A DNA stretch of 64,000 nt, taken from Roseomonas gilardii subsp. gilardii. Its GTDB lineage: Bacteria; Pseudomonadota; Alphaproteobacteria; Acetobacterales; Acetobacteraceae. The DNA is taken from NCBI RefSeq assembly GCF_023078375.1, contig NZ_CP095554.1, forward strand, positions 1 through 64,000, in the 5' to 3' direction. The number at the start of each line of letters is the position of its first letter. Within the stretch, counting starts at the first letter, position 1. A program made the position numbers and the translations under genes. The notes under the pieces were generated by a model. The model had not been told where the DNA came from, did not search any database, and was given only the letters and a program-made list of their open reading frames with translations. Shown here one piece after another: positions 4,633 through 54,556 of this stretch.

Positions 4633-4971
4633 TCAGGCCGCCATGCGTCCGCATTCCTCCGCGCATTTGCGGCAAGTCTCGGCGCAATGGTGCATATGTT
4701 CGTCCGCTTCCGGGTGCTTGCCACAGGCTTCGGCACATTCGCGGCAGATCTCCGCGCATTCGCGGCACAGATGCGCCATGTGGCGGGACCCGCGGATCAT
4801 GAAGTCCGCCGCCGTGAGGCAGATCTGCGCACAGTCCATCATGATCCGCATGTGGTCCAGCGCGGCATGGCGACCGCCCTTGCCCAGGCAATGGGTGAGG
4901 CCGCCGAGACAGGTCCGGTGGCAGTCCAGGCATGCCTGGATGCAGGCTTCGAGCTTCGGGTCGGCCTTCAT
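4633..4971 (-). CDS. Four-helix-bundle copper-binding protein (Csp3-like)
   Basis: A 112-residue protein with 16 cysteines, at positions 10, 14, 17, 21, 28, 47, 51, 69, 72, 76, 79, 83, 96, 100, 103 and 107. They sit in helix-compatible i/i+3/i+4 spacing (for example CRECAEICRECAEAC) and His and Met residues are also frequent. This is the pattern of the DUF326/Csp family, whose four-helix bundles store many Cu(I) ions along the inner face. There is no signal peptide, so it resembles cytosolic Csp3 rather than exported Csp1. Likely role: buffering cytosolic copper. It is divergent from nothing obvious; the VOC gene follows 40 bp downstream. I saw no CueR-type operator upstream. Confidence 0.88.
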   Translation of the reverse strand: MKADPKLEACIQACLDCHRTCLGGLTHCLGKGGRHAALDHMRIMMDCAQICLTAADFMIRGSRHMAHLCRECAEICRECAEACGKHPEADEHMHHCAETCRKCAEECGRMAA

Positions 4972-5014
4972 CTCACGCTCCCACCGTTACCTCCCCTGAG
5001 CGCCCCTCCCCCCA

Positions 5015-5052
5015 GGGAAAGTTGCGGTGGGAAAGCTGCGGTGGGAAAGTTT
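5015..5052. repeat. 14-bp tandem repeat, 2.5 copies
   Basis: GGGAAAGTTGCGGT, then GGGAAAGCTGCGGT, then GGGAAAGTTT, lying between the copper-storage gene start (4971) and the MFS stop (5085). The adjoining bases 5054-5076 form a weak C-run/G-run hairpin that could end the MFS transcript. No protein is encoded. Confidence 0.6.
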
Positions 5053-5084: not shown

Positions 5085-6263
5085 TCAGCCCTCCCCGTCC
5101 CGCCGCACCGCGCGGCTGCTCCAGGCGATCGCCAGGGAGGTCAGCACCAGCAGGCACAGCGCCAGCCGCAGCCCCGAGACCTGCGCCAGGAAACCCAGCA
5201 GCGGCGGCCCGCCGAGCAGCCCGCCATAGCCCATGGTCGCCACCATCGCGACGCCCATGCCCGGCGACACGCCGGGGATGCGCCCCGCCGCGCTGAACAG
5301 CACGGGGAAGACATTGGACAGGCCAAGCCCGACCAGCACGAGCCCGGCGATGGCGAGTTCCGGGCTCGGCACCGCCAGCATCAGCACGAAGCCCGCCGCC
5401 GAAAGCAGCGCCCCCAGCCGCAGGACCGGGGCACTGCCCAGCCGCCGCACCACGGCATCGCCACCCAGCCGCCCCGCCGTCATGGCCAGGGAAAAGCCGG
5501 CGAAGCCCAGTGCCGCCAGGCCCGCCGGGGCCGCCGTCTCCACCGCGAGGTACAGCGCCGACCAGTCCCCCACCGCCCCCTCAGTCACCAGGGCGAGCAG
5601 CGCGATCACGCCGAGGCCGAGCGTGGCCCGGTTCGGCAGGGCGAGCCCGTGCCCGCCCTCCTCCGGCACCGATGGCGCATGGCCCTCCACCCGCAGCCAG
5701 GGCATGGCCAGCAGCACGCAGAGGGCCACCAGGGCCCCGGACACGGCGAGGTTCAGCGGCGCCGCATGGCCGGCGGCGAGCAGCAGCCCCGCCAGCCCCG
5801 CCCCGGCCAGCCCGCCCAGGCTGAAGGCCGCGTGGAAGGAGGACATGATGGCCGCGCCCCAGCCGCGTTCGACCAGCGTGGCATGGGTGTTCATGGACAC
5901 GTCCATCACCCCGTTGCCCGCCCCCAGCAGCATCAGCCCGAGCACGAGCGTGGCAAGCCCGCCCGCCTGTGGCACCAGGGCCAGGACCAGGGCGAAGGCG
6001 AGGCCGGAGGCGGCGGTCAGCCGGTGGCTGCCCCAGCGCGCGGACACCTGCCCGGTCAGTGGCATGGCCAGGATGGCCCCGATGGCCATGCCCAGCAGCG
6101 CCAGGCCCAGCGCCCCGTCGGACAGGCCCAGCCCCAGCTTGATCGAGGGGATATTGCCGGCCCAGGCGCCATAGCCGAAGCCATTGGCGAAGAAGACCAG
6201 GATGGTGGCCAGCCGGGGGCGTGTGTCACGCGTCCGGGCCAGGGCGAAAGGCGCCTCGGACAT
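5085..6263 (-). CDS. MFS transporter
   Basis: A 392-residue inner-membrane protein with about twelve hydrophobic segments, in the YbjJ-like group of the major facilitator superfamily. The N-terminal half contains FFANGFGYGAWAGNIPSIKLGLGLSDGALGLALLGMAIGA and a loop 2-3 motif GQVSARWGSHR, a form of MFS motif A. The middle contains GAGNGVMDVSMNTHATLVERGWG, which is typical of this group. The substrate is unknown. It is transcribed toward the csp gene with a 113-bp gap, so a link to copper is not supported. Confidence 0.82.
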   Translation of the reverse strand: MSEAPFALARTRDTRPRLATILVFFANGFGYGAWAGNIPSIKLGLGLSDGALGLALLGMAIGAILAMPLTGQVSARWGSHRLTAASGLAFALVLALVPQAGGLATLVLGLMLLGAGNGVMDVSMNTHATLVERGWGAAIMSSFHAAFSLGGLAGAGLAGLLLAAGHAAPLNLAVSGALVALCVLLAMPWLRVEGHAPSVPEEGGHGLALPNRATLGLGVIALLALVTEGAVGDWSALYLAVETAAPAGLAALGFAGFSLAMTAGRLGGDAVVRRLGSAPVLRLGALLSAAGFVLMLAVPSPELAIAGLVLVGLGLSNVFPVLFSAAGRIPGVSPGMGVAMVATMGYGGLLGGPPLLGFLAQVSGLRLALCLLVLTSLAIAWSSRAVRRDGEG

Positions 6264-41391: not shown

Positions 41392-43399
41392 ATGTCTGAC
41401 CCATCCCCAGCGACCCCCTCGCCATCCCTGGCTGCCGCCGCCGTTCCCGGCGTCGTACCTCCCTTCTCCACGGCCCAGGGCTCCCGCCAGCTTCCTCCCC
41501 CGGCCCAGGTTCCCCCACCCTACAGCCCCGATCTGAAGCACCTGCTGACCATCGTGGTCGCCGTCGTGGTGATCAGCGCGCTCTATCTGGCGCGCGAGGT
41601 GCTGATCCCCATCACCCTGGCCATCCTGATGTCCTTCGTGGTGGCACCCATCGTGGGCCTCCTTCGCCGCCTCGGCCTCTGGCGCACGCCGGCCGTGCTG
41701 GCGGCGGTGCTGCTCGCCATGGGCGTGATCCTCGTGCTGGGCAGCATCATCGGCCTGCAGATCGCCGGGCTGGCGCAGGACCTGCCGCGCTATCAGGCCA
41801 CCATCCAGCGGAAGGTGGATACGGTGCAGGGCACCGCCCTGGGCTGGGTGAACGACGTCGTGCGGCAGATCGACCACGCCCAGCCCACCGCCCCACCCCC
41901 GCCACGCCCGGTGAGGACTCCCGGCCGATGCGGGTGGAAATCCAGCAGGGCCAGCCCTCGCCCGTGGAACTGGCGCAGCGCCTGCTCTCCCCCGTGCTGG
42001 GGCCGCTGGAGACGGTCTTCATCGTCGTCATCGTCGCCATCTTCATCCTGATGCAGCAGGCCGATCTGCGGGACCGGTTGATCCGCCTCTTCGGCTCGGA
42101 TGACCTGCACCGCACCACCGTGGCCCTGGACGACGCGGCCAAGCGCCTGTCGAAGTACTTCCTGGCCCAGCTCGCGATCAACGGCTGCTTCGGCGCGGTG
42201 GTGGCGGCCGGGCTCTTCTTCATCGGCGTGCCGAGCCCCCTGCTCTGGGGCATCCTGGCCGCGCTGTTCCGCTTCATCCCCTATGTCGGCGCGCTGCTGG
42301 CCGCCGCCCTGCCCATCGCCCTGGCCGCCGGCGTCGATCCCGGCTGGAACATGGTGATCTGGACCGCCGCCCTGTTCCTGGTCACGGAGCCCATCATGGG
42401 GCAGGTGGTGGAGCCGATGGTCTATGGCCACAGTACCGGCCTCTCCCCCGTCTCGGTCATCGTGGCGGCGATCTTCTGGACCTGGCTCTGGGGCCCGATC
42501 GGCCTGATCCTGGCGACGCCGCTCACCCTCTGCCTCGTGGTGCTGGGCCGGCATGTGGAGCGGCTGGAGTTCCTCGACGTCATGCTGGGCGACCGCCCGG
42601 CCCTGACGCCCGCGGAGAACTTCTACCAGCGCATGCTGGCCGGCGACGCGGACGAGGCGCAGGCGCAGGCCGAAAGCCTGCTGGAGGACCGGCCCCTCTC
42701 CTCCTACTACGACGAGGTCGCGCTGAAAGGGCTGCGGCTGGCCGCCAACGACGCGCAGCGCGGCGTGCTGTCCGAGGCCAAGCTGCAGCAGATCCGCGAC
42801 ACCACGGCGCTCCTCGTGCAGTCCCTGGCCGACCAGGAGGACCGTGACCCTCCCCCCGCCGAGGCGCGTAGCGCGGTGGAGGAGCAGAGCGTGGCGGAAA
42901 AAGCCCTTCCACGCCGTGCCGCCCCGCCGTACCGCTGCCGCCCCCGGAATCCTGGCCGGAAGCCTGGCGCGGCGAGGGCGCGGTGCTTTGCCTCCCCGGG
43001 CGTGGGCCGCTGGACGAAGCGGCCTCCGCCATGCTGGTCCAGATCCTGGGCCGGCATGGGCTGGGCGCCCGCCTGCTGCCGCACGAGGCGGTCTCCCGCA
43101 CCGCGATTGGCCGCCAGGACTTTTCCGGCGTGGCGATGATCTGCCTGTCCTACCTGGATCTCTCCGGCAGTCCGGCGCATCTCCGCTACCTGCTCCGCCG
43201 GCTGCGGCAGAAGGCCCCCGGCGCCCCGGTGGTGGTGGGCCTCTGGGACGCGAAGGACGAGGTGCTGCGCGACGCCGCCCTGCGCGGCGCCATCGGCGCG
43301 GAACACTACACCACCTCCCTCGCCGAAACCGTCACCGCCTGCCTGGAAACCGTCCGCGCCGCGAGCACGGCACCGGAGATGGCTCCGGCGGCGGAGTGA
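41392..43399 (+). pseudogene. AI-2E family transporter with C-terminal extension, two frameshifts as sequenced
   Basis: Three frames together encode one long protein. Part 1 (41392 to about 41900): Pro-rich N-terminus, then membrane helices (HLLTIVVAVVVISALYLAREVLIPITLAILMSFVVAPIVGLLRRLG). Part 2 (about 41900 to 42950): FIVVIVAIFILMQQADLRDRLIRLFGSDDLHRTTVALDDAAKRLSKYFLAQLAING, VPSPLLWGILAALFRFIPYVGALLAAALP and MGQVVEPMVYGHSTGLSPVSVIVAAIFWTWLWGPIGLILATPLT, the AI-2E transporter core. Part 3 (to 43399): VLCLPGRGPLDEAASAMLVQILGRHGLGARLLPHEA...SYLDLSGSPAHLRYLLRRLRQKAPGAPVVVGLW, a B12-binding-like fold common as a C-terminal extension in alphaproteobacteria. Each junction needs one extra base (C5 at 41896-41900; a C-run near 42915-42955). 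It is probably intact in the cell. The substrate is not known. Confidence 0.75.
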
Positions 43400-43437
43400 G
43401 TCGAACGGACCTTGGGCGTCGCGCTCGGTGTCCAGCC

Positions 43438-43845
43438 CCCGGGAGAGGCCCTGCCTCTCCCGGCCCCTCTCCGCCCATGACCAGGATGGGGGACCGAAGC
43501 CGGTCCCCAGACCCCGGGCTTTCATGGGCGCTGGTGGTGGCCGTCAGCCTGACGGCCGATCCCTGGGAGCAGATGGATCAGTGGGGTGCCCGAAAAGAAA
43601 GAATCCTTGCCCGCGCTGGTGGTGCCCGCACTCGCCGGAGAGCATGGCTCTCCGGCGTGATCAGGTGTCAACGGAAGCCAGCGACAGGGAGATCCAGGGT
43701 CAACGTATACGTTGACCAGGTTCCTGGCGGATGGCGGGTACGAAGGCGAAGGCGAAGGCGAAGGCGAAGGCGAAGGCGAAGGCGAAGGCGAAGGCGAAGG
43801 CGAAGGCGAAGGCGAAGGCGAAGGCGAAGGCGGAGCCTTCCCCCC
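43438..43845 (+). mobile_element. Miniature hairpin-rich element, copy 1 (with hexamer expansion)
   Basis: A 408-bp non-coding element, related in reverse orientation to 52696-52981. It begins with a perfect 11-base hairpin (CCGGGAGAGGC / GCCTCTCCCGG, 43438-43462). Then come a nine-base hairpin GGCCGTCAG / CTGACGGCC (43539-43557), an 11-base hairpin CGCCGGAGAGC / GCTCTCCGGCG (43633-43657), a 20-bp perfect palindrome (43698-43717), the terminal motif TTCCTGGCGGATGG..GGTACG, 15 copies of CGAAGG, and GGCGGAGCCTTCCCCCC. It contains no gene of its own. Shared stretches with copy 2 include CTGGTGGTGGCCGTC and GCCGATCCCTGGGAG. Confidence 0.65.
43741..43830. repeat. Hexanucleotide array (CGAAGG)15
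   Basis: Fifteen perfect tandem copies of CGAAGG (90 bp) near the right end of element copy 1. Element copy 2 has a single equivalent unit at the same place, so this is an expansion. Frames through it read (GE)n, (KA)n or poly-R on the top strand. Confidence 0.95.
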
Positions 43846-43868
43846 GGGGCAGCACAACGCCAACCGTA

Positions 43869-45092
43869 TCAGGGCGAAAGGCGGCTTTCCCGGATCAGCA
43901 CGTCCTCGCGCTGCTTCACCGCCGGGTTCAGCGCCGTGCCCAGGCCGGGGGCCGATGGGGCCTGGACCATGCCGCTCCGGATCACCGGCAGTTCCGTCAC
44001 CAGTTCCTGGTACCAGGTGGCCAGCGTGGCCCGCACCACCTCCTGGAAGATCGCGGTCGGCGCATGGAGGGCGAGGTGCAGCCCCGCCCAGAGGGCCACC
44101 GGCCCGGTGCAGTCGTGGGGGGCCAGCGGCTTCGCATGGGCCTCGGCCAGGGCGGCGATCTTGCGCGCCTCGGTCAGGCCACCGCACCAGCCAAGGTCGA
44201 GCATCACCACATCCACCGCCTCCGCCGCCAGCAGGCGACGGAAGCTGATGGCGCCCGACAGGGTCTCGCTGCCGCAGATGGGCGTGCGCGTCTGGCGCCG
44301 CAGGTCGGCCAGCGCCTCCACATCGTCCATCTTGTTCAGCGGGTCCTCGGCCCAGAAGACGCCGACATCCTCCAGCGCCCGGCAGATGCGGATCGCCGCC
44401 TGGCTGCTCCAGAGGCTGTGCAGCTCCGCCATCACCTCGATCCGCTCGCCCACCGCCGCGCGGATCTTGCGGAAGGGCTCCAGCCCCGCCTTCAGCTCGG
44501 ACAGGGTGATCGCGTGGCCGCCCGTGGCCTCGGCATAAGGGTCGAAGGGCCAGATCTTCATCGCCGTATAGCCCTCGGCGAGCAGGCTTTCCGCCAGTGC
44601 CCCGGCATCGCGGGTGAAGGCGATCTGGTCGTCATAGGGGCCGCGCATCTCCTCCTCCCCCGAGACGCTGCGACGCCACCCGGCACCGGAACCCATCTTC
44701 CCGCTGTTGTAGGCATAGCCGGCACAAGTGTTGTAGGCGCGGATCTCCGTCCGGACCGCCCCGCCCAGTGCCTCGTGCACGGGGATGCCGTGCCGCTTCC
44801 CGGCCAGGTCCCAGAGCGCGATGTCCACCGCGCTCGCCGCCCGGCCTTCCGCGCCCGCGCTGTGGAAGCCGACATAGGGCGTGGCCAGATGCCGCGACAC
44901 CGCCTCGATCCGCCGCGAATCCCGCCCCAGCAGCCAGGGCGCCACCTGCTCGTGCAGCGCCGCCTCCGTGGCCTGCGCCCCCCGGAAGGATTCGCCGAGG
45001 CCGGTCAGCCCCTCCTCGGTCTCGACCTCCACCCAGATGAGGTTCGGACGCTCGGCGATGCGGATGGTCCGCAACAGGGTGACCTTGGACAT
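43869..45092 (-). CDS. Mandelate racemase/muconate lactonizing enzyme family protein (sugar-acid dehydratase-like)
   Basis: A 407-residue enolase-superfamily enzyme. The capping domain starts MSKVTLLRTIRIAERPNLIWVEVETEEGLTGLGE. The barrel has TAMKIWPFDP (Lys after beta-2), VMAELHSLW and FWAEDPLNKMD (metal ligands Asp/Glu), GSETLSG (third Glu) and APHDCTGPVALWAGLHLAL (catalytic His/Asp region). These fit acid-sugar dehydratases of the MR subgroup, but the substrate cannot be named. The start was set by the family N-terminus. The stop lies 24 bp from the repeat element; no pathway partners adjoin. Confidence 0.86.
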   Translation of the reverse strand: MSKVTLLRTIRIAERPNLIWVEVETEEGLTGLGESFRGAQATEAALHEQVAPWLLGRDSRRIEAVSRHLATPYVGFHSAGAEGRAASAVDIALWDLAGKRHGIPVHEALGGAVRTEIRAYNTCAGYAYNSGKMGSGAGWRRSVSGEEEMRGPYDDQIAFTRDAGALAESLLAEGYTAMKIWPFDPYAEATGGHAITLSELKAGLEPFRKIRAAVGERIEVMAELHSLWSSQAAIRICRALEDVGVFWAEDPLNKMDDVEALADLRRQTRTPICGSETLSGAISFRRLLAAEAVDVVMLDLGWCGGLTEARKIAALAEAHAKPLAPHDCTGPVALWAGLHLALHAPTAIFQEVVRATLATWYQELVTELPVIRSGMVQAPSAPGLGTALNPAVKQREDVLIRESRLSP

Positions 45093-45278
45093 GGGGCAGT
45101 TTTCTCCGTTCCGCTCCTGCGGCGGAGCTTTCCGGAGTTCGCGCCCCAGGTCGAGACCGTGTCGCGGATGGCTGCTCCGTGGCAGGGGGCGCGGCCCTCG
45201 AAGCGGGGTGCCGATGTCAGCAGGCAGGGGAAAAGGGCAGATTCGGGGAAGGCGCTGCCTCCCCCGGAGAGCCACGGC

Positions 45279-46622
45279 TCAGAGGATGAACCGGCTCAGA
45301 TCGGTGCTGGCGGCCAGGGCGCCGACCTTCTCCCGCACATAGGCGGCATCGATGGCGACTTCCTGGCCGGCGCGGTCGGCGGCGGTGAAGCTCAGCTCCT
45401 CCAGCAGCCGCTCCAGCACGGTGGCGAGGCGGCGGGCGCCGATATTCTCCACACGCGCGTTGATGTCCGCCGCCATGTCGGCGATCGCGTCCATCGCATC
45501 CTCGCCGAAGGTCAGGCGCACGCCCTCGGTACCCAGCAGCGCGACATACTGCTTGGCGAGCGAATGCTCCGGCTCGGTCAGGATGCGGCGGAAGTCGTCG
45601 CGCGTCAGGGCGTTCAGCTCGACGCGGATCGGCAGGCGCCCCTGCAGCTCCGGCAGCAGGTCGGAGGGCTTGGCGAGGTGGAAGGCGCCCGAGGCGATGA
45701 AGAGGATGTGGTCCGTCTTCACCGGCCCGTGCTTGGTGTTCACCGTCGTGCCCTCGATCAGCGGCAGCAGGTCGCGCTGCACACCCTCACGCGACACGTC
45801 GCCGCCACGGAAGCCTTCGGTGGTGCGGGCGCAGACCTTGTCGATTTCGTCGATGAAGACGATGCCGTGGTTCTCGGCATGGGCGACAGCGTCGCGGGTC
45901 AGCTTCTCCTGGTCGAGCAGCTTGTCCGCCTCCTCCCGCACCAGCAGCGGACGCGCGTCGGCGACGTGCATCTTGCGCGGGCGCTGGCGGCCGCCGAACA
46001 TCTTGCCGAGCATCTCCTGCATGTTCGCCATCTGGGCGCCGGGCGGCATGCCGGGGATCTCCATCATCCCGATGGCCGTCCCGCCATCGGTGACCTGGAT
46101 CTCCACCTCCTTGTCCTCCAGCGAGCCCTCGCGGAGCATGCGGCGGAACTTCATGCGCGTCTCGCCCGAGGCACCCTCGCCCACCAGGGCGGTGACGATG
46201 CGCTCCTCGGCATTGGCCTCGGCCTTGGCCTGCACGTCACGGCGGGCATTGTCGCGCATCTGCACGATCGCGGCCTCCACCAGGTCGCGCACGATCTGCT
46301 CCACGTCGCGGCCGACATAGCCGACCTCGGTGAACTTCGTGGCCTCGACCTTGAGGAAGGGCGCGTTGGCGAGCTTGGCGAGGCGGCGGGCGATCTCCGT
46401 CTTGCCCACGCCGGTCGGGCCGATCATCAGGATGTTCTTCGGTACCACCTCCTCGCGCAGCCCTTCGGGGAGCTGCTGGCGGCGCCAGCGGTTGCGCAGC
46501 GCGATGGCCACGGCGCGCTTGGCGTCGTCCTGGCCGATGATGAAGCGGTCGAGCTCCGAGACGATCTCGCGCGGAGACAGGTTCACGGGCTCGGCCGCGG
46601 CGGGGGAATTGTCCAGCGGCAT
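45279..46622 (-). CDS. hslU: ATP-dependent protease ATPase subunit HslU
   Basis: A 447-residue AAA+ unfoldase that feeds substrates to HslV. It starts [48 protein letters not shown], with Walker [42 protein letters not shown], Walker [12 protein letters not shown], sensor [26 protein letters not shown] and C-terminal LSRFIL, the tail that activates HslV. It overlaps hslV by the shared ATGA. Confidence 0.97.
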
Positions 46623-47191
46623 CACAGGGTCTCCAGCACGAAGCGTCCGTTGGTGTAGACGCAGATATCGGCGGCGATGGTCATGGCGCGGCGGGCGATC
46701 TCCTCCGCGCCCAGCCCCTCCACCGGCATCAGCGCCCGGGCGGCGGCGAGCGCGTAGTTGCCGCCGGAGCCGATGCCGATGATCTGGTCCTCTGGCTCCA
46801 GCACATCGCCCTGGCCGGTGATCAGCAGGGAGCGGTTGGCATCCGCCACGGCGAGCAGCGCCTCCAGCCGCCGCAGGTAGCGGTCGGTGCGCCAGTCCTT
46901 GGCGAGTTCCACCGCCGCGCGTTCGAGCTGGTCGGGGAAGCGCTCCAGCTTGGCCTCGAGGCGTTCGAGCAGGGTGAAGGCGTCGGCGGTGGCGCCGGCG
47001 AAGCCGGTGATCACCCGGCCGCCGGCGATACGGCGGACCTTGCGGGCATTGTTCTTGACGACGGTCTGACCCATGGACACCTGTCCATCCCCGGCCATGG
47101 CCACCTTCCCGTCCTTGCGGACGCAGAGGATGGTGGTGCCATGCCAACCCAGGGGGTCGCGATGCGGGTCGTGATGGGAATGCTGTTGCAT
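46622..47191 (-). CDS. hslV: ATP-dependent protease subunit HslV
   Basis: A 189-residue threonine protease subunit. It starts [18 protein letters not shown], a His-rich propeptide removed to expose catalytic Thr19 in [36 protein letters not shown]. Other motifs are [21 protein letters not shown] and [14 protein letters not shown]. The propeptide length fits alphaproteobacteria. First gene of hslVU. Confidence 0.96.
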
Positions 47192-47683
47192 GGATCGCGA
47201 TGTGGCGATCCGTGCGCCGCAGCGCAATCCGGGGGTGCGGCCGAACGCAGGGCAGGGTCGCAGCCCGGGAAGGGCTCGGCAACATTCCGTGGCAAGGCGG
47301 CCGCCCATCTCCCTGGATCTGCCCCCGGCGGCCCCGCCGGAAAGCATCCCGCCCCCTTTGACGGGGCCCGGACGGCCGGGGCGAGCATAGAAGGCGGGTG
47401 CGGAAATGCCGCCGCTGTGCTTTGCTGCGCTGCCCGGAGGCTCCCCCGGAGGCTGTCCCCGGACGCCGCCGTACCGCGGGGCCACCGGCCGGGCGAGCCC
47501 CCCGGATGGCTGATCGTACCGGGCGGCGGGGGCCGGGACGTGGTGACCCCGGGGCATGGATGCCCCCGGGCGAATGGAATGAGGCACGATGCCGGGCAGG
47601 TTGAGCCGGAACCCCTTGGCCAGGACAGGCCACTGATCTTGAACCGCATGCGCGTGCAACGGCTCGCCCCGGTCCTGCCTGTC
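47192..47683. other. Divergent gap hslV / tonB-like; no gene seen
   Basis: A 492-bp GC-rich stretch. It holds one notable inverted repeat (CCCGGGGCAT / ATGCCCCCGGG, about 47545-47568). The open frames crossing it lack ribosome-binding sites and family resemblance. It presumably holds both promoters, including a heat-shock promoter for hslVU that I could not identify. Confidence 0.4.
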
Positions 47684-48858
47684 ATGACCCTGCGCCAGTC
47701 CCCCGGCCTGCTGCCCGTCCCGCCCCTTCTGCCGCCCGGCCGTGGCGATGGTGGGCATGGCGTGCCGACGCCACCCGGACCCGGCCGCCCCCCATCCGGT
47801 GGCAAGCGGCCAGAGGACCGGGGCTGGCGCCGCTGGCGGAGGCCCGCCTTCCTCGTCTCGGCCCTGCTCCACATCGCCCTGCTGGCGGCCCTGCTGCTGA
47901 CCTGGCAGGGTCGCGAGCAGCCGACCCCCCTGCCGGACGCCGGCGTGCCGGTGATCTTCGAGGATGCCGGGGATGCGGAGCGGACCGCGCGGCCGCAGGA
48001 AACCCCCTCGGCCCCGCTGCCGCCGCCGAGCCCCGAGACCGCCGCGCCACCACCGCCCGCCATGGCCGAGGCGCCGCTGCCGGAGGCCGCCCCTCTGGCG
48101 CCGCCGGCCGAGGTGCCGCCCCGGCCCCCGGTGACCGAGCCTCCGCAGCCTGCTCCGGAGCCGCAGGCACAGGAGGCCCCACCGCCGCCCGCCCCACCAC
48201 CGCCCCTGCCCACCCCGCCCCAGCCCCGGACGGCCGAGCAGCCCCCGCCGGAACCGCCCGCGACGGCTGAGCTGCTGCCCCCGCCACCGCCGCCGCCCCC
48301 GCCGCAGCTCGCCAGGCCGGGCCCCACGGCGCCGCCCCAGGCCCGCCCGGCTCCGCACCGCGCGCCCTCGCCCTTCGCCGGGGCGCTGGACCTCAGCCGC
48401 GGCCCGGCGGTGAACCTGTCCCAGGCCGTGCCGCGCCCGAATATCCGGCCGAACGCCACCGGCCAGGGCCGCGGACTCGACCTGTCCTTCAACACGCCCT
48501 CCCCCGCTCCCCGCGCGCCGCCTCGCCGTCGGATCTGGGGACCTCGGTGAGGATCCAGGGCGCCAATCCGGGTGCCGACTGGATGGCCGCCTTCCGTGCC
48601 TGGCTGGACCGGAACGGCTACTATCCGCAGATGGCCGCCATGGCGGGGGAGGACGGCACCGCCACCGTGCGCTTCACCGTGCTGAAGAATGGGCGGGTGC
48701 AGGACCTGCGGCTGGTCAGCCGCTCCGGCTCCAAATGGCTCGACATGGGCGCGCAGGCCATGCTGCGGGACAAGACCCTGCCGCCCTTCCCGGAAGGGAC
48801 CAAGGCCGACAGCACGGAGATCACCCTGACCATCGACTATATCCTGATCCGCCGCTGA
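47684..48858 (+). pseudogene. TonB-like energy transducer, frameshifted as sequenced
   Basis: Part 1 has a membrane anchor [23 protein letters not shown] with the S-x3-H motif (Ser59, His63) of TonB/TolA, then about 200 residues rich in Pro and Glu, the periplasm-spanning linker. Part 2, in the frame one base earlier, is a TonB C-terminal domain: [75 protein letters not shown]. One missing base in the C-rich stretch at about 48498-48530 would join them as [18 protein letters not shown]. It would couple the proton-motive force to outer-membrane receptors. No ExbBD genes are next to it. Confidence 0.78.
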
Positions 48859-48874
48859 GCCGGGCCATCCCCCG

Positions 48875-48899
48875 GATTCATTCCTTGAACGAATCTTTT
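48875..48899 (+). terminator. Terminator of the tonB-like gene
   Basis: GATTCATTC / GAACGAATC stem (one mismatch) with a three-base loop followed by TTTT, 17 bp after the stop; Rho-independent form. Confidence 0.75.
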
Positions 48900-49045
48900 G
48901 GGCCGGGAATCCGGGCCGGACAGCGCGCATCGCGGCAGCCGCCGGGCCCGTTCCCGGCGCCTTTCCCGGACCCGCCCTCCCTGACCCGGCCCGCTGGCCG
49001 GCCTCCCTCTTCCCCCGGCCGCGTCCCCGGGACTAAACGGACGCC

Positions 49046-49665
49046 ATGAACGCCGTCCCCGCCCCCTCGCCCCCCGCATCGCCGAGATCGCCCGCGAGAC
49101 GGGCGAGACCGCCATCACGCTGCGCCTCGACCTCGATGGCACGGGCAGGGCGGAGATCGCGACCGGCATCGGATTCCTGGACCACATGCTGACGGCGCTG
49201 GCCCGCCACGCCATGTTCGACCTGACGGTCGAGGCCCGGGGCGACCTGCATGTGGACTTCCACCACACCACCGAGGATGTCGGCATCGTGCTCGGCCAGG
49301 CGCTGCGCCGCACGCTGGGCGAGAAGCGCGGCATCCGCCGCTATGGCCATGCCGTGGTGCCGATGGACGAGGCGCTGGCCGAGGCGGCGATCGACCTGTC
49401 CGGCCGCCCCTTCCTGGTCTGGCAGGTGCCCTTCGAGCGCTCCAAGATCGGCGAGATGGACACGGAACTGTTCGAGGAGTTCTTCCGCGCCCTCTCCTCC
49501 AACGGGCTCTTCGCCCTGCATGTGATGCTGCGCCATGGGCACAACGCGCACCATGTGGCGGAGGGCTGCTTCAAGGCCGTGGCCCGCGCGCTGCGCCAGG
49601 CGGTGGAGACCGACCCCCGCGCGGCGGGGGTGATCCCCTCCACCAAGGGCATGCTGGAGGCATGA
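49046..49665 (+). pseudogene. hisB: Imidazoleglycerol-phosphate dehydratase HisB, frameshifted near the start as sequenced
   Basis: HisB removes water from imidazole glycerol phosphate (sixth step of histidine synthesis). The body is complete: RIAEIARETGETAITLRLDLDGTGRAEIATGIGFLDHMLTALARHAMFDL, metal-binding HHTTEDVG and GHNAHHVAEGCFKA, and a C-terminal IPSTKGML. The only good start (ATG 49046, MNAVPAPSPP) is one frame off. One extra C in the C6 run at 49070-49075 would join it perfectly (TCG CCC CCC CGC ATC GCC). No other start codon lies upstream in the body frame. It is probably functional in the cell. First gene of the his block. Confidence 0.85.
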
Positions 49666-50048
49666 TGCGAGTCTTCACCATCCACGCCCCCGCCCGGACC
49701 TCGGTTCCGGTCACGGGCGCGGCTTCCCGCCCGGCGGAGCCTGTACTGGTGCCGGAGGGCTTCTCCTTCGCCGCCTTCCTGTTCGGCCCGCTCTGGTTCC
49801 TCTTCAAGGGCCTCTGGTGGGGCCTGCTCGGCTGGATCGTGCTGGCCGTGGCCATCGCCTTCCTGCCCGGTGCCTCCTCCTCCTGGGCGGGCCTCGCCCT
49901 GGCGCTGCTGACGGGCTTCCACGCCCGCGACCTGCAGCGCTGGACGCTGGCGCGGCACGGCCTGCCGGAATCCGGCCTGGTGGTCGGCGCGGACGAGGAA
50001 ATGGCGCTGCTGCGCCTGGCGGGCCGATCCGCAGGGAGGCACGCATGA
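49662..50048 (+). CDS. DUF2628 domain-containing membrane protein
   Basis: A 128-residue protein with an N-terminal beta segment (MMRVFTIHAPAR), FSFAAFLFGPLWFLFKGLWWGLLGWIVLAVAIAFL (two membrane helices) and FHARDLQRWTLARHGL. Its FGPLWFL..GLWW core marks DUF2628. In alphaproteobacteria it is commonly placed between hisB and hisH, as here, with overlapping starts and stops on both sides. The function is unknown; co-expression with histidine synthesis is certain from layout only. Confidence 0.85.
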   Translation: MMRVFTIHAPARTSVPVTGAASRPAEPVLVPEGFSFAAFLFGPLWFLFKGLWWGLLGWIVLAVAIAFLPGASSSWAGLALALLTGFHARDLQRWTLARHGLPESGLVVGADEEMALLRLAGRSAGRHA

Positions 50049-50698
50049 AGCTCGCCGTCATCGACACCGGGGCGGGCAACCTCGCCTCCGTGCTGCGCGC
50101 CTTCCGCCGGGCGGCCGGGGAAGCCGGCATCGCGGCCGGGATCGAGGTCACCACCCGGCCGGAGGATGTCGCGGCGGCGGACCGCATCGTGCTGCCGGGC
50201 CAGGGCGCCTTCGCCGCCTCCCGCCGCGGCCTCGACGCGCTGCCGGGCATGGAGGAGGCGCTGCGCGAGGCGGTGGAGCGGCAGGGCCGCCCCTTCCTCG
50301 GCATCTGCGTCGGCATGCAGCTCATGGCCGAGCGCGGGCTGGAGCACGGCACCCATCCCGGCCTGGGCTGGATCCGGGGGGAGATCGCGCCGATGGACCC
50401 GGCGGGACCGGATGCCGCCCCCCTGCCCCTGCCGCAGATGGGCTGGAACGGATTGGACCTCGCCGCCCCCGCCCATCCGCTGCTGCGGGACGTGACGCCC
50501 GGCGAGCACGCCTATTTCGTGCATTCCTATGCCCTGCGCGGCGGCGCGGCCGGGGAGCTGCTGGCCAGCGCCGATTATGGCGGGCCGGTCTGCGCCATGG
50601 TGGGGCGCGACAACCTCGCCGGCACGCAGTTCCATGTGGAGAAGAGCGGCGGGCTCGGCCTGCGCATGCTCGGCAACTTCCTGCGCTGGTCACCGTGA
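50045..50698 (+). CDS. hisH: Imidazole glycerol phosphate synthase, glutaminase subunit HisH
   Basis: A 217-residue class I glutamine amidotransferase that supplies ammonia to HisF. It starts [20 protein letters not shown]; the nucleophile Cys is in [15 protein letters not shown], and the His/Glu pair is in [25 protein letters not shown] and YFVHSYAL are family motifs. Overlaps DUF2628 upstream (ATGA) and the GNAT gene downstream (GTGA). Confidence 0.95.
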
Positions 50699-51270
50699 GC
50701 GGCCCCCTGCCCAACCCCATGCACGAGCTTTCGGTGGAACGGGTCGAGTCGCTGGACGAGGCCGACCTCGCCGAGCTCTGCGAGGCCACCGATGCCGCCA
50801 TCGCCGAGGGCGGCGGCTTCGGCTGGATCCAGCCCCAGGGGCGCGAGATCCTGGAGCGTCATTTCCGTGGCGTGATGCTGGTGCCGGAGCGCGAGCTCTT
50901 CGTTGCCTGGCTCGACGGCCATCCGGTCGGCAGCGCCCAGCTCATGCGCCCGCCCCGCAACAACGAGGCCCAGGCCTGGGCCGCCCAGCTCAGCCATGCC
51001 TACATCGCTCCCTATGCCCGGGGCCATGGCCTCGCCCGGCTGCTGATGCGGCGGGTGGAGGAACGGGCGGCGGCGCTCGGTCACCGGGTCCTGAACCTCG
51101 ACGTGCGTGCGACGCAGCATACCGCCATCGCGCTCTTCGAGGCCTGCGGCTATATCCGCTGGGGGACCCACCCCGCCTATGCCCGGGTCGATGGCGCCAC
51201 CGTGCCCGGCCACTACTACTACAAGCTGCTGGAGCCCGGGCGGGGCCGACGCGGAAAGGAACGGATGTGA
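50695..51270 (+). CDS. GNAT family N-acetyltransferase
   Basis: A 191-residue acyl-CoA-dependent acetyltransferase. It has [46 protein letters not shown] (acetyl-CoA pyrophosphate loop, R/Q-x-x-G-x-G/A form) and [21 protein letters not shown]. It begins with GTG overlapping the hisH stop and ends overlapping the hisA start (GTGA both times), so it is fully embedded in the his operon. The acceptor is unknown. Confidence 0.85.
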
Positions 51271-51989
51271 GCCTGACCATCTATCCCGCCATCGACCTCA
51301 AGGGCGGCCGTGTCGTCCGCCTCCGCCGTGGCGAGATGGATCAGGCCACCGTCTACAGCGACGACCCTGCCGCCCAGGCGGCCAGCTTCGCCACCGCCGG
51401 CTTCCGCTGGCTGCATGTGGTGGACCTGGACGGCGCCTTCGCCGGCCGCCCGGCCAATGCCGCCGCCGTGCGCGACATCCTCGCCGCCACGTCGCTCCCC
51501 GTGCAGCTCGGCGGCGGGGTGCGCGACATGGCCACCCTGGAATCCTGGCTGGAGGCCGGGGTGGCGCGGGTGATCCTGGGCTCCGCCGCCGCCAAGGACC
51601 CGGACTTCGCCCGATCGGCCTGCCGCGCCTATCCGGGCTGCGTCGCCATCGGCATCGATGCCAAGGGCGGGCGCGTGGCCACCGAGGGCTGGGCGGAGGT
51701 CGGCGAGATGACGGCGCGCGACCTGGCGCTGCGCTTCGAGGATGCCGGGGCGGCCGCCATCATCCACACCGACATCGACCGCGACGGCATGCTGGGTGGC
51801 GTGAATGTCGAGGCCACGGCGGCGCTGGGCGCCCGCCTTACCACCCCGGTCATCGCCAGCGGCGGCGTCGCGGGGGTGGAGGACATCACCGCCGTGCGCG
51901 AGGCCGGGACGATCCAGGGCGTGATCGTCGGCCGCGCGCTCTATGACGGCCGCCTGACCGCGGCCCAGGCGCTCACCGCCGCCGGCTGA
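51267..51989 (+). CDS. hisA: ProFAR isomerase HisA
   Basis: A 240-residue TIM-barrel isomerase of histidine synthesis. GTG start (51267): [33 protein letters not shown]. It has the catalytic Asp in [20 protein letters not shown] (phosphate loop), [16 protein letters not shown] (second catalytic Asp) and [19 protein letters not shown] precedes the start. Followed 11 bp later by a HAD gene; hisF is not next, as it normally is, but 5.5 kb away. Confidence 0.95.
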
Positions 51990-52000
51990 CCGCCCCTGCC

Positions 52001-52747
52001 ATGGCGGAGGCACCGCCCGCCGCGCCCTATGCGCTGGCGGTCTTCGATTTCGACGGCACGCTGGCCGACAGCTTTCCCTGGTTCGCCGGCGTGCTGAACG
52101 GGGTGGCGGACCGCTACGGCTTCCGCCGCATCCGGCCGGGCGAGGCGGAAGGGCTGCGTGGCCTCGAAGCCGCCGCCATCCTGGACCGCCTCGGCGTGGC
52201 GCGCTGGAAGCTGCCCTTCATCGCGCGGCACATGCGGCGCCTGGCGGCCCGCGACATCGCCGCGCTGGCGCTCTTTCCCGGTATGGGGGATTGTCTCCGG
52301 CGGCTCTCGGCCGATGGCCTCGCCCTGGCCGTGGTCAGTTCCAACAGCGAGGCCAATATCCGCCGCGTGCTGGGCGCGGAGCTTTCGGCCCGGATCGCCC
52401 ACTGGCACTGCGGCGCTGCGCTCTTCGGCAAGCCGCGCAAGCTGCGCGCGCTGCTCCGCCGCAGCGGCACGCCGCCACATCGCGCCATCCTGATCGGCGA
52501 CGAGATCCGCGACATCCGGGCCGCGCGGGCGGTGGGCATGGAATCGGGCGCCGTGACCTGGGGCTACAACAGCGCCGAGGCACTTCGGGCGGAACGGCCG
52601 TCGCGGATCTTCCGCCGGTCGGAGGAGATCGCCGCCTTGCTGCTGCCCGGTCGCGACGGCGGCGCCTCGCCCGTTCGGCGTTGCACCTCCGGCCCGGGGG
52701 GAAGGCTCCGCCATTCCCCCCGTACCCCCCATCAGCCAGGAACCTGA
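52001..52747 (+). CDS. HAD family hydrolase, C-terminus altered by the repeat element
   Basis: A 248-residue phosphatase-like protein of the phosphoglycolate phosphatase group. It has motif I VFDFDGTLADSF, motif II LAVVSSNSEANI, a conserved Lys in GKPRKLRALL, and motif III AILIGDEIRDIRAARAVGMESGAVTWGYN. Natural homology ends near residue 225 (IAALLLPG). The last residues (from about GPGGRLRHSPR) are encoded by the left end of the element that starts at 52696, and the stop itself lies inside the element. Activity is probably kept because the catalytic core is complete. The substrate is unknown. Confidence 0.85.
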   Translation: MAEAPPAAPYALAVFDFDGTLADSFPWFAGVLNGVADRYGFRRIRPGEAEGLRGLEAAAILDRLGVARWKLPFIARHMRRLAARDIAALALFPGMGDCLRRLSADGLALAVVSSNSEANIRRVLGAELSARIAHWHCGAALFGKPRKLRALLRRSGTPPHRAILIGDEIRDIRAARAVGMESGAVTWGYNSAEALRAERPSRIFRRSEEIAALLLPGRDGGASPVRRCTSGPGGRLRHSPRTPHQPGT

Positions 52748-52981
52748 GGTTCCTGGACCTCCCATTCGCTGGTGCTGGTGGCGGCCGGATCGCGCCGGAG
52801 GGCTATGCTCTCCGGCGACTGCGGGTGCCGGAAGCGCGGACATTTCGGAGTCCCGCCTGTCCACCTTCTCCCAGGGATCGGCCCGTAGGCCGACGGCCAC
52901 CACCAGGGCCAACTCATCGGATCCAGGGCACGCAGTGTCCTGGCGGATGGGGGTACGGGGGCGAAGGCGGAGCCTTCCCCC
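52696..52981 (-). mobile_element. Miniature hairpin-rich element, copy 2, with terminal inverted repeats
   Basis: A 286-bp element in reverse orientation to the one at 43438. Its ends are imperfect inverted repeats of about 40 bp (left GGGGGGAAGGCTCCGCC..CCGTACCCCCC..GCCAGGA; right, reverse complement, CGGGGGAAGGCTCCGCC..CCGTACCCCC..GCCAGGA). Inside are a hairpin CCAGGAACC / GGTTCCTGG, a CGCCGGAG.GC / GC.CTCCGGCG hairpin, and a GGCCGT / ACGG(G)CC hairpin. These sit in the same order as in copy 1. It has no transposase. It separates the two halves of the his locus and supplies the end of the HAD gene. Confidence 0.65.
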
Positions 52982-53021
52982 GGCGGCAGGACGCAGGGAG
53001 CGGCGCAAGGCGCAGCGCGGA

Positions 53022-53480
53022 TCAGTCGAGGATGCGGACCACCGCCTCGATCTCCACCGGCACGTCGGAGGGCAGCGAGCCCATGCCGACCGCCGAGCGG
53101 GCATGGCGCCCGCGCTCGCCCAGCACATCGACGAGGAGGTTGGAGCAGGCGTCGATCACCTTGGGCTGCTCGCCATAGCCCGGCGTGGCGTTCACCATGC
53201 CGAAGACCTTCAGCACCTCCACCTTCTCCAGGCTGCCCGCCGCAGCCCTGGCGACCGCCAGGATATGCAGCCCACACAGGACGGCGGCCTTGCGCGCCGC
53301 CTCCAGGTCCAGGGCGGAGCCGACCTGTCCGGTGATCAGCGAGCCATCGGCCAGCCGAGGCACCTGGCCGGAGATATAGACCGTGTCCCCCGCGCGCCGG
53401 AACGGCACATAGGAGAAGAGCGGCTTGCCCACCACGGGCAGTTCATGGCCCAGTTCGCGCAGCTTCGCTTCGGCGTCCAT
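53022..53480 (-). CDS. RidA family protein
   Basis: A 152-residue YjgF/YER057c/UK114 protein. It has GDTVYISGQVPRLADGSLITGQVG, AAVLCGLHILAVARAAAGSLEKVEVLKVFGMVNATPGYGEQPKVIDACSNLLVDVLGERGRHARSAVGMGSLPSDVPVEIEAVV, in which the Arg of GRHARSAVG binds the carboxylate. Such proteins hydrolyse reactive enamine/imine intermediates. It follows a DSD1-like PLP enzyme by 17 bp on the same strand, so it may clear 2-aminoacrylate-type products from that enzyme. Confidence 0.88.
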   Translation of the reverse strand: MDAEAKLRELGHELPVVGKPLFSYVPFRRAGDTVYISGQVPRLADGSLITGQVGSALDLEAARKAAVLCGLHILAVARAAAGSLEKVEVLKVFGMVNATPGYGEQPKVIDACSNLLVDVLGERGRHARSAVGMGSLPSDVPVEIEAVVRILD

Positions 53481-53497
53481 CGCGTTCCTCTCCTGGC

Positions 53498-54556
53498 TCA
53501 GCGCGTCATGCCGCGGGCGGGGATCGGCCAGGAGCCGACGACCTCGCCATTCCGGGCGAAGACCACCTCGTCATGCAGGTTGGTCACCACGCAGGTGTGG
53601 TTGGGGATGATGCGCACGCGCTCGCCGAGTTCCGGCTTCTTCGCGCAGCGGCTGACATCCACCGTGCCATGCTCCTCGTTCACGCGGGTGATCACCGCCT
53701 CCGGATAGTCGGGCATCAGCCCGTAGCCCGGCCCGACCTCGGGCGCGACCATGTCGCTGGACAGCGTCTTGGAGCCGCAGTCGAGGATCGCCCGCCCCTC
53801 CGCCGGTCGGCTGATCACCGTGGCCCAGACGGTCATGGCGCAGTCGCCGAGCGTCGCGGCCCCGGCGCCGACCATGGCGCGGTCGTTGTAGATGTAGGTG
53901 CCAACCCGCATCTCGTCGATCGGCGCCACCTCGTGCACCGTCCAGGCGCCGGGCGAGCCGCCGCCGGACACCATCGGGATCTCCAGCCCGGCCTCGCGGA
54001 AGGCCGGCCGCGCCTCCTCCAGGAAGACCTTGGTCTGCGCCGAGGTCGGATAGGTCATCAGCCCGTCGAAGCGCAGCCCCGGCGTCGCCGCGATCTCCCT
54101 GGCCAGCGCCAGCGCCTCGCCCACCGTTTCCACGCCGGTGCGCTTGTTGCCGCTGTCGAATTCCACCACCACGCCGATCTCGGCGCCGCTCTCGCGCGCC
54201 GCCTGCGCCGCCGTGGCCAGCGCCAGCGGGTTGTCCACCGCGACCCGCATCCGCACCCGCTTCGCCAGCGCGGCGAGGCGGTGCGCCTTGGCCTCGCCGA
54301 TCAGCGGATAGGAGATGAAGATGTCGTCCAGCCCGGCATCGGCCATCACCTCGGCCTCGCCCAGCTTCTGGCAGGTGATGCCCTTCGCCCCCAGTTCCAC
54401 CTGCCGCTGCGCCAGGCGCGGCAGCTTGTGCGTCTTGATATGGGGGCGGAGCGCGATGCCATGCGCGTCGCAGTAGTCCTGCATCCGCTTCAGGTTGCGC
54501 TCCATCACGTCGAGATCCACCACCGGCACCGGGGTTTCCAGCTCGTCGACCCGCAT
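53498..54556 (-). CDS. D-threonine aldolase / D-serine dehydratase-like PLP enzyme (DSD1 family)
   Basis: A 352-residue fold-type III PLP enzyme. It begins ELETPVPVVDLDVMERNLKRMQDYCDAHGIALRPHIKTHKLPRLA, with PLP Lys41 in PHIKTHK. FDSGNKRTGVET and MVSGGGSPGAW (phosphate binding) follow, and the C-terminal metal site is in PNHTCVVTNLHD (His and Cys, the divalent-metal ligands of this family). It would cleave or dehydrate a D-3-hydroxy amino acid. It sits in a two-gene operon with ridA downstream. D-threonine aldolase and D-serine dehydratase cannot be told apart here. Confidence 0.86.
   Translation of the reverse strand: MRVDELETPVPVVDLDVMERNLKRMQDYCDAHGIALRPHIKTHKLPRLAQRQVELGAKGITCQKLGEAEVMADAGLDDIFISYPLIGEAKAHRLAALAKRVRMRVAVDNPLALATAAQAARESGAEIGVVVEFDSGNKRTGVETVGEALALAREIAATPGLRFDGLMTYPTSAQTKVFLEEARPAFREAGLEIPMVSGGGSPGAWTVHEVAPIDEMRVGTYIYNDRAMVGAGAATLGDCAMTVWATVISRPAEGRAILDCGSKTLSSDMVAPEVGPGYGLMPDYPEAVITRVNEEHGTVDVSRCAKKPELGERVRIIPNHTCVVTNLHDEVVFARNGEVVGSWPIPARGMTR

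Follow-up and report, generated by a model that had tools for sequence, protein, structure and literature searches.

A dispersed mosaic repeat with double-hairpin ends in Roseomonas lies behind genes, concentrates around the origin and is depleted at the terminus

We analyzed a 64,000-nucleotide window of Roseomonas gilardii subsp. gilardii (contig NZ_CP095554.1, positions 1 to 64,000), in which two non-coding stretches, named copy 1 and copy 2, each lie between convergent genes. nhmmer profile matches and direct reading of the sequence indicate that they are homologous and in opposite orientation, which bears out an initial annotation, made from the sequence of the window alone, that had described two copies of a miniature element. 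They belong to a dispersed, mosaic, non-coding Roseomonas repeat with inverted double-hairpin ends that enclose a T-rich tract and a central hairpin; its copies lie just behind stop codons and are most frequent around the replication origin. The profile was built from 44 of 48 aligned copies; the features of the two copies and their flanking genes are as follows.

43416–43861, minus strand: copy 1, whole, between convergent genes; end read directly in the sequence
43416–43757, minus strand: profile match of copy 1 (nhmmer, model 29–352, 265.6 bits, E 1.6e-79)
43439–43463, minus strand: copy 1 outer right hairpin, GGGAGAGGC/GCCTCTCCC type (sequence and self-complementary match)
43489–43508, minus strand: copy 1 inner right hairpin, GGGGACCG/CGGTCCCC (sequence and fold)
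43633–43657, minus strand: copy 1 central 25-bp hairpin, CGCCGGAGAGC-NNN-GCTCTCCGGCG (pattern match, 0 mismatches)
43694–43729, minus strand: copy 1 inner left hairpin, an extended variant holding the 20-bp palindrome 43698–43717 (sequence; extra columns in the 32-copy alignment)
43741–43832, no strand: hexanucleotide array (CGAAGG)15.3 in one arm of the copy 1 outer left hairpin (Tandem Repeats Finder and sequence)
43827–43849, minus strand: copy 1 outer left hairpin apex AAGGC-NNN-GCCTT (hairpin 43827–43839), then a C run
43850–43861, minus strand: copy 1 end tail GGCGTTGTGCTG (sequence)
43869–45275, minus strand: mandelate racemase/enolase-like gene flanking copy 1 (Pfam MR_MLE_C, E 5.6e-60)
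52001–52747, plus strand: HAD-like hydrolase gene flanking copy 2, which it enters by about 23 codons (Pfam HAD_2, E 6.3e-25)
52678–53003, plus strand: copy 2, whole, between convergent genes (nhmmer, model 2–349, 231 bits, E 5.4e-69)
52696–52721, plus strand: copy 2 outer left hairpin (sequence, alignment)
52736–52756, plus strand: copy 2 inner left hairpin, CCAGGAACC-TGA-GGTTCCTGG (sequence, list of open reading frames, pair counts)
52793–52817, plus strand: copy 2 central hairpin (pattern match, 1 mismatch to the consensus)
52923–52943, plus strand: copy 2 inner right hairpin, CCAGGGCAC/GTGTCCTGG (sequence, alignment)
52957–52981, plus strand: copy 2 outer right hairpin, GGGGGCGAAGGC/GCCTTCCCCC (sequence, alignment)
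53022–53480, minus strand: YjgF/L-PSP family gene flanking copy 2, convergent (Pfam PF14588, E 1.4e-15)

The right-end sequence first described as shared is indeed common to both copies; the 20-bp palindrome of copy 1 and the CCAGGAACC/GGTTCCTGG hairpin of copy 2 are likewise present. Copy 1 extends past its profile match: beyond 43757 it consists of the expanded outer left hairpin and the end tail, and it is complete to the tail at 43861. Its (CGAAGG)15 array is a perfect repeat, the length of which is possibly variable. The mandelate racemase/enolase-like gene next to copy 1 is convergent to an open reading frame ending at 43399, which has no Pfam match. The left end of copy 2 overlaps the 3' end of the HAD-like gene, whose stop codon is the TGA loop (52745–52747) of the inner left hairpin. 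When folded as RNA, copy 2 and copy 1 (43416–43757) reach z values against shuffles of -8.15 and -5.80, respectively. The Rfam covariance models give no match in the window at gathering score, and neither copy holds an intrinsic terminator (GC hairpin followed by a T run); one such terminator is present in 43000–54000, outside both copies, where shuffles give 2.4.

The element is about 345 bp long, and its architecture is common to the 48-copy and 32-copy alignments. In the orientation of copy 2, it is made up of a tail near GGCGTTGCGCT, an outer hairpin, an inner hairpin, the central hairpin, the T-rich tract, short palindromes and a right end in which an inner and then an outer hairpin repeat the left end inversely. 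In the left end, the outer hairpin has the form GGGGG..AAGGC-NNN-GCCTT..CCCCC and the inner one CCAGGANCC..GGNTCCTGG. Each end is thus a double hairpin, and the inverted ends of complete copies, as read from the 48-copy alignment, span about 85–100 bp; terminal inverted repeats had been recognized at the outset but at about 40 bp, and the conserved hairpins, counted as three, number at least five. The interior leaves no room for a transposase, in agreement with the initial annotation.

Blastn with copy 1 or copy 2 against the genome of the window gave 40 scored places each with E < 1e-30 (the best 40 of 293 and 201 candidates, respectively). With up to three mismatches, the central hairpin occurs 85 times in this genome, 77 and 100 times in two close relatives (G003 and G004), 21 times in Roseomonas sp. 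OT10, once in G012 and not at all in G001 (control 1 in OT10 and 0 in the five others), so that the many dispersed copies foreseen in the window's own and related genomes do exist. A degenerate 25-base stem is matched without mismatch 61, 55, 55 and 212 times in the window genome, G003, G004 and OT10, and a degenerate 24-base stem is matched exactly 215 times in OT10; the exact 25-base stem is absent from the remaining 11 of the 15 genus genomes, and its control from all 15. At E 1e-5, blastn finds matches in 11 of 60 genomes, which are full-length only in the same four and limited to the end hairpins in the seven others. A scan of GTDB species genomes for the exact degenerate central stem, which may leave out records of the window genome or its near kin, returned 71 stretches, of which Roseomonas mucosa ATCC BAA-692 contributes 50 and a Roseomonas metagenome-assembled genome one; the other 20 are singletons in unrelated taxa. 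One element match of OT10 is carried by a plasmid (contig C2, 286,493 bp, at 4749–5042). Cousins with similar double-hairpin ends and a different middle were seen at loci L065, L068, L071 and L077 (G008, G014, G009 and G012, respectively), in congeners without the family; one of them is low-copy in G012 (6 match rows), G014 (2) and G006 (4), rows being doubled by strand, and was not found in G001, the best 40 of 72–87 candidates being scored. No description of the Roseomonas repeat was found in the open-access PMC library, and the available part of an Acetobacteraceae paper names bacterial interspersed mosaic elements (BIMEs) only within a list of mobile elements (PMC4686929).

Covariation was counted over 51 pairs in seven helices, in 32 copies picked from four genomes out of 87 full-length ones; RNAalifold on the whole element with the 87 copies gave a poor consensus, and the named helices were counted instead. 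Pairing is kept in 93.6% of the cells, compared with 88.3% in shuffles, and both sides change at 16 of the 51 pairs (8.5 expected). Double-change cells number 71 versus 17.1 +- 3.3 in shuffles, a value reached by 0 of 500 shuffles, and further pair types 29 versus 25.0, reached by 14 of 500, the significance of these shuffles being overstated because the copies share descent. Slid structures, used as a control, gave at most 7 double-change cells. Among the matches listed, the OT10 cores mostly carry the stem CGCCGAGGAGC/GCTCCTCGGCG and some CGCCGGGGAGC/GCTCCCCGGCG, both fully compensated relative to the central stem of the window genome. The compensatory change that the initial annotation had suspected is therefore found in the element, where double changes preserve the pairing, but not at the palindrome 43698–43717 it had cited: this is an extended variant of the inner left hairpin, with no base-by-base compensation.

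Flanking genes were called with our own hexamer model, and single calls may be wrong. Among 47 distinct copies selected by similarity from the window genome, the flanking genes are convergent for 27, tandem for 19 and divergent for 1, compared with 47, 232 and 45, respectively, of 324 neighboring gene pairs (binomial 1.1e-11 for the convergent excess). The excess is smaller in two less selected regions with hits of at least 80 bits: region A (window genome, 550–980 kb) has 8 convergent, 13 tandem and 2 divergent placements (n = 23, binomial 0.013) and region B (G003, 3.80–4.20 Mb) 10, 11 and 2 (n = 23, binomial 0.0008). The corresponding numbers for OT10 are 17, 14 and 0 (n = 31). Seventy-three gene 3' ends face the 47 copies, at a median distance of 18 bp, and 42 of the 47 have a gene 3' end within 60 bp. 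The copies between tandem genes show no preferred orientation (8 of 19 the same way). A location where backbone genes meet catabolic cargo, as once proposed, is not supported because the copies occupy a large part of the chromosome and their neighbors are for the most part convergent or tandem gene pairs.

The distribution of the element along the chromosome, invisible from one window, is centered on the origin and depleted at the terminus. In the window genome, parS-like sites are found at 758.9 kb (758,902) and 780.4 kb (780,431), with a third match, of another form, at 1.213 Mb; the chromosomal gene for ParB, located at 778.6 kb, bears out this parS locus. The circular mean of the 60 exact cores listed is 758,713, 0.2 kb from the parS-like site 758,902. 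Counted in octiles from parS, these cores number 17, 22, 9, 8, 4, 0, 0 and 0 (Rayleigh ~6.5e-13), their density declining gradually away from the origin and leaving a core-free arc of 1.81 Mb. A second, partly overlapping list of 59 blastn copies gives 13, 21, 11, 8, 4, 1, 1 and 0; the exclusion is strong, not absolute, since the terminus-side half holds 6 of these 59 copies, including those at 2.225 and 2.493 Mb. In G003 (parS-like sites at 4.12–4.14 Mb), no exact core lies in 1.08–2.75 Mb among the cores listed up to 3.11 Mb, and the center of this gap is 48 kb from the parS antipode. In OT10 (parS-like site at 4.76 Mb), for which 86 of the 215 places are listed, the density is 12–14 cores/Mb in 1.1–2.6 Mb, 28 in 2.6–2.96 Mb and 53–71 in 0.2–1.1 Mb, a 4–5-fold dip at the terminus; none is listed in 0–0.2 Mb, an origin-side interval. 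In two species, the arc around the terminus that is free of exact cores amounts to about 40% of the chromosome; a third species has fewer cores there. As an origin marker, dnaA (3.61 Mb; G000:C1:3612845-3614224, in the window genome) was tried and rejected: parS fits the 60 sites far better (Kolmogorov–Smirnov 5.9e-12, sites centered) than dnaA (0.002, sites leaning away). Being located about 1.35 Mb from the parS/parB region, dnaA seems ill suited to mark the origin of this chromosome. The origin could not be placed by GC skew either, which was too noisy in samples of 20 kb.

Stretches of 400 kb at the terminus (2.67–3.07 Mb in the window genome, 1.77–2.17 Mb in G003) were compared with origin stretches of the same two genomes. 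Profile matches at E 1e-3 are absent from both terminus stretches, whereas merged hits number 28 and 26 at the origin. Between the two genomes, the terminus stretches are collinear, with 78% of each covered and a longest block of 54 kb, versus 51–55% and 21 kb at the origin, a difference that may stem in part from the choice of stretches; the origin stretches align in more pieces (51 anchors, 22 at the terminus). Identity is 91.8% at the terminus versus 91.3% at the origin, and coding content is equal. Convergent pairs number 43 and 48 in the terminus stretches and 41 and 42 in the origin stretches. The element is carried by 11 of 41 and 12 of 42 of them at the origin versus 0 of 43 and 0 of 48 at the terminus (pooled, 23 of 83 versus 0 of 91; Fisher 6.4e-9). 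The median element-free convergent gap is 80 and 61.5 bp at the terminus versus 122 and 131 bp at the origin, gaps of at least 60 bp being similarly frequent (25 and 24 versus 22 and 23). Other intergenic hairpins with a stem of at least 10 number 23 and 20 at the origin versus 20 and 18 at the terminus. Because the terminus stretches are conserved and contain convergent pairs and other hairpins, gene turnover, a shortage of sites or a ban on hairpins explains the absence poorly. Turnover of the terminus half and a general hairpin shortage there were accordingly rejected as causes, the former by the conservation of the stretches and the latter by the hairpin counts.

Regions A and B were compared for orthologous sites. 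Region A holds 28 merged hits: 7 have a counterpart at the orthologous site, 4 have none there, 3 fall at rearrangements and 14 lack anchors; for the 26 in region B, the numbers are 8 (one with a wide gap), 4, 3 and 11. A solo end hairpin remains at two empty sites (A 232401 and B 201352). Seven orthologous copy pairs are 85–90% identical, with paralogue means of 83–86% and one pair below the paralogue mean, and they differ by large module gaps, while their anchors are ~91% identical; this fits sites that persist while copies exchange their interior. Within the window genome, copy identity averages 0.77 (best pair 0.94), and the OT10 copies are more homogeneous (mean 0.88, 26 copies). OT10 and the window genome are too diverged or rearranged for a comparison of shared sites (0 comparable sites). 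Three of the 28 region A hits (112064, 120773 and 181084) lie at synteny breakpoints relative to G003. One copy is split by an IS110-family transposase gene inside its inner left hairpin (L120:16355-17600, about 706.4–707.6 kb of the window chromosome; DEDD_Tnp_IS110, E 2.1e-25); PMC1525189 reports that certain insertion sequences insert into repetitive extragenic palindromes (REPs).

We class the element as a large new variant of interspersed mosaic palindromic repeats, BIME- or miniature inverted-repeat transposable element (MITE)-like, because it fits them in copy number, intergenic location, inverted ends and a pattern of presence and absence; no transposase of the RAYT family was found in the 13 genus genomes searched, and no consistent target duplication was visible at the empty sites read. 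With its terminal inverted repeats, non-coding sequence, dispersed copies and presence or absence between species, it resembles a small MITE, but its ends are themselves hairpins, and no consistent target-site duplication is visible at its empty sites, few of which are clean. The rhizobial intergenic mosaic elements (RIME) are alphaproteobacterial, intergenic and mosaic, with two large palindromes in ~108 bp; by this description they resemble the element and are smaller. The REP/BIME families GTAG and CGTC are likewise palindromic, extragenic and of high copy number, uneven among relatives and placed behind genes, between convergent or tandem ones, and REPs lie mostly behind genes, according to the accessible text of Di Nocera et al. 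(PMC3733652), which also reports CGTC repeats missing from Acetobacteraceae. REP/BIME units measure 20–40 bp, whereas the present element, of ~345 bp, has long inverted ends and no fewer than five hairpins, and origin centering, a feature of the Roseomonas element, is not mentioned in that part of PMC3733652. RAYT, the partner that the initial annotation had envisaged, was not found in the genus genomes searched: its domain PF01797 matches none of these 13, the window's own included (OT10 and G014 were outside that search), and 3 of 21 genomes in all, each from another genus, the control being positive in 5 of 14 named genomes. The binding sites of Noc (NBS) and SlmA (SBS), according to PMC4726725, are palindromic, present in ~70 and 24–52 copies per chromosome and under-represented at the terminus (Ter). 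The element shares with them palindromes, tens of sites and a depletion at the terminus, here in three genomes; unlike it, they are short protein sites (NBS 14 bp) without mobile-repeat anatomy.

We consider it fairly probable that this mosaic family spreads, or has spread, as a non-autonomous element that is kept where tolerated and in a position-dependent manner along the origin–terminus axis. It would be moved by machinery encoded elsewhere than in its own sequence, and at least two lineages would each have amplified their own version. Copies would be retained mainly behind genes because insertion is tolerated there, and their interior would be turned over through recombination among copies. 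As the outer hairpins are palindromic, the two ends are also direct repeats, and loss of the interior can leave one hairpin behind, a course that two sites point to. Position between origin and terminus would influence either insertion or retention, and the element, where transcribed, would give neighboring mRNAs stable 3'-terminal hairpins. Several results weigh against this reading. The target-site duplications that had been expected were not consistently seen by eye at 8 empty sites (4 each way), several of which are unclean (one copy split by the IS110 element, one partial copy and two with a solo hairpin), and no fresh near-identical copies occur among those compared, so that present mobility is unsupported by these data. 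No transposase partner was found, the genome-wide search covering PF01797 only, with no dedicated search for coding elements with the element's ends. Isolation by distance is absent (Mantel rho 0.077, p 0.875, 55 copies), as is an orientation bias by replichore (18/13 versus 14/14, Fisher 0.61, 59 copies), and without either, mobility alone does not predict the origin centering. The Mantel test also led us to reject local hopping, near neighbors being no more alike, and the lack of bias with replication direction an IS200/IS605-like single-strand element.

The distribution could instead reflect chromosome-organizing sites, at which a host protein or the DNA structure marks the origin half and ties division or nucleoid compaction to segregation, terminus copies being counter-selected. 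We hold this to be somewhat unlikely, although the octile counts, the circular mean at parS and the Rayleigh value in the window genome speak for it, together with the G003 gap near the parS antipode, the dip in OT10, the terminus stretches that are empty although synteny is no lower there and convergent pairs and other hairpins are about as many, and the likeness to the Noc and SlmA sites, also palindromic and scarce at Ter. No binding protein is known, however, and 345 bp with many hairpins far exceed a 14-bp site; the stem sequence varies by species, as would be expected for a conserved structure rather than for recognition of one fixed sequence; exact cores are absent from 11 of 15 genus genomes, in which the function would have to be dispensable or taken over by something else; and some copies persist in the terminus-side half, as do 12–14 cores/Mb in OT10. 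That the repeat was recruited as origin-side chromosome markers, an alphaproteobacterial counterpart, by convergence, of the Noc/SlmA sites in which a mosaic repeat carries a spatial code and terminus-half copies are purged, appears unlikely to us and is offered tentatively. Bidirectional terminators or stabilizers of mRNA 3' ends, whose hairpins behind convergent genes stop transcripts or block exonucleases, would account for the short distance to stop codons, the convergent preference, the indifferent orientation at tandem genes and the very stable folds. This is possible but on the doubtful side: neither window copy holds an intrinsic terminator, and the need would be expected in both halves, yet none of the 91 convergent pairs at the terminus carries the element, against 23 of 83 at the origin.

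A founder effect, in which one insertion near the origin was followed by local hopping and by symmetric inversions preserving the distance from the origin, would make the distribution historical. The gradual fall in density agrees with it, and so do the more broken origin stretches and the hits at breakpoints in region A, but near neighbors are no more alike, and the homogeneous, compensated version of OT10 points to a separate expansion with the same kind of depletion; we regard this scenario as quite improbable. The double changes themselves may have another source, as quasi-palindrome correction or template switching can turn imperfect hairpins into perfect ones. Such an effect of the copying machinery, without selection, is conceivable, if rather doubtful: the hairpins are DNA palindromes within a repeat family and are extended or replaced in copy 1, L042, L038 and L005 of the 32-copy alignment, whereas the dominance of one stem variant among the OT10 cores listed would require at least that the corrected form then spread.

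Scattered passengers is how dispersed palindromic repeats tend to be viewed. The placement of the element may matter for chromosome organization, and its scarcity around a terminus no poorer in genes, synteny, convergent pairs or other hairpins, as judged from the 400-kb stretches, raises a testable question: does the position between origin and terminus govern the insertion or survival of repeats, or do the repeats work there? In addition, Roseomonas gains from the element a natural marker that is structured and multi-copy, and DNA hairpins that differ between species by compensatory change are documented.

A second type of solo hairpin, CCGGGAGGC-NNN-GCCTCCCGG, recurs outside the element in the window genome and G003. 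It is found at 107403, 189486, 236300, 386460 and 394977 in region A and at 5122, 13698, 304103, 312872, 356920 and 363753 in region B, and may be an ordinary gene-end hairpin.

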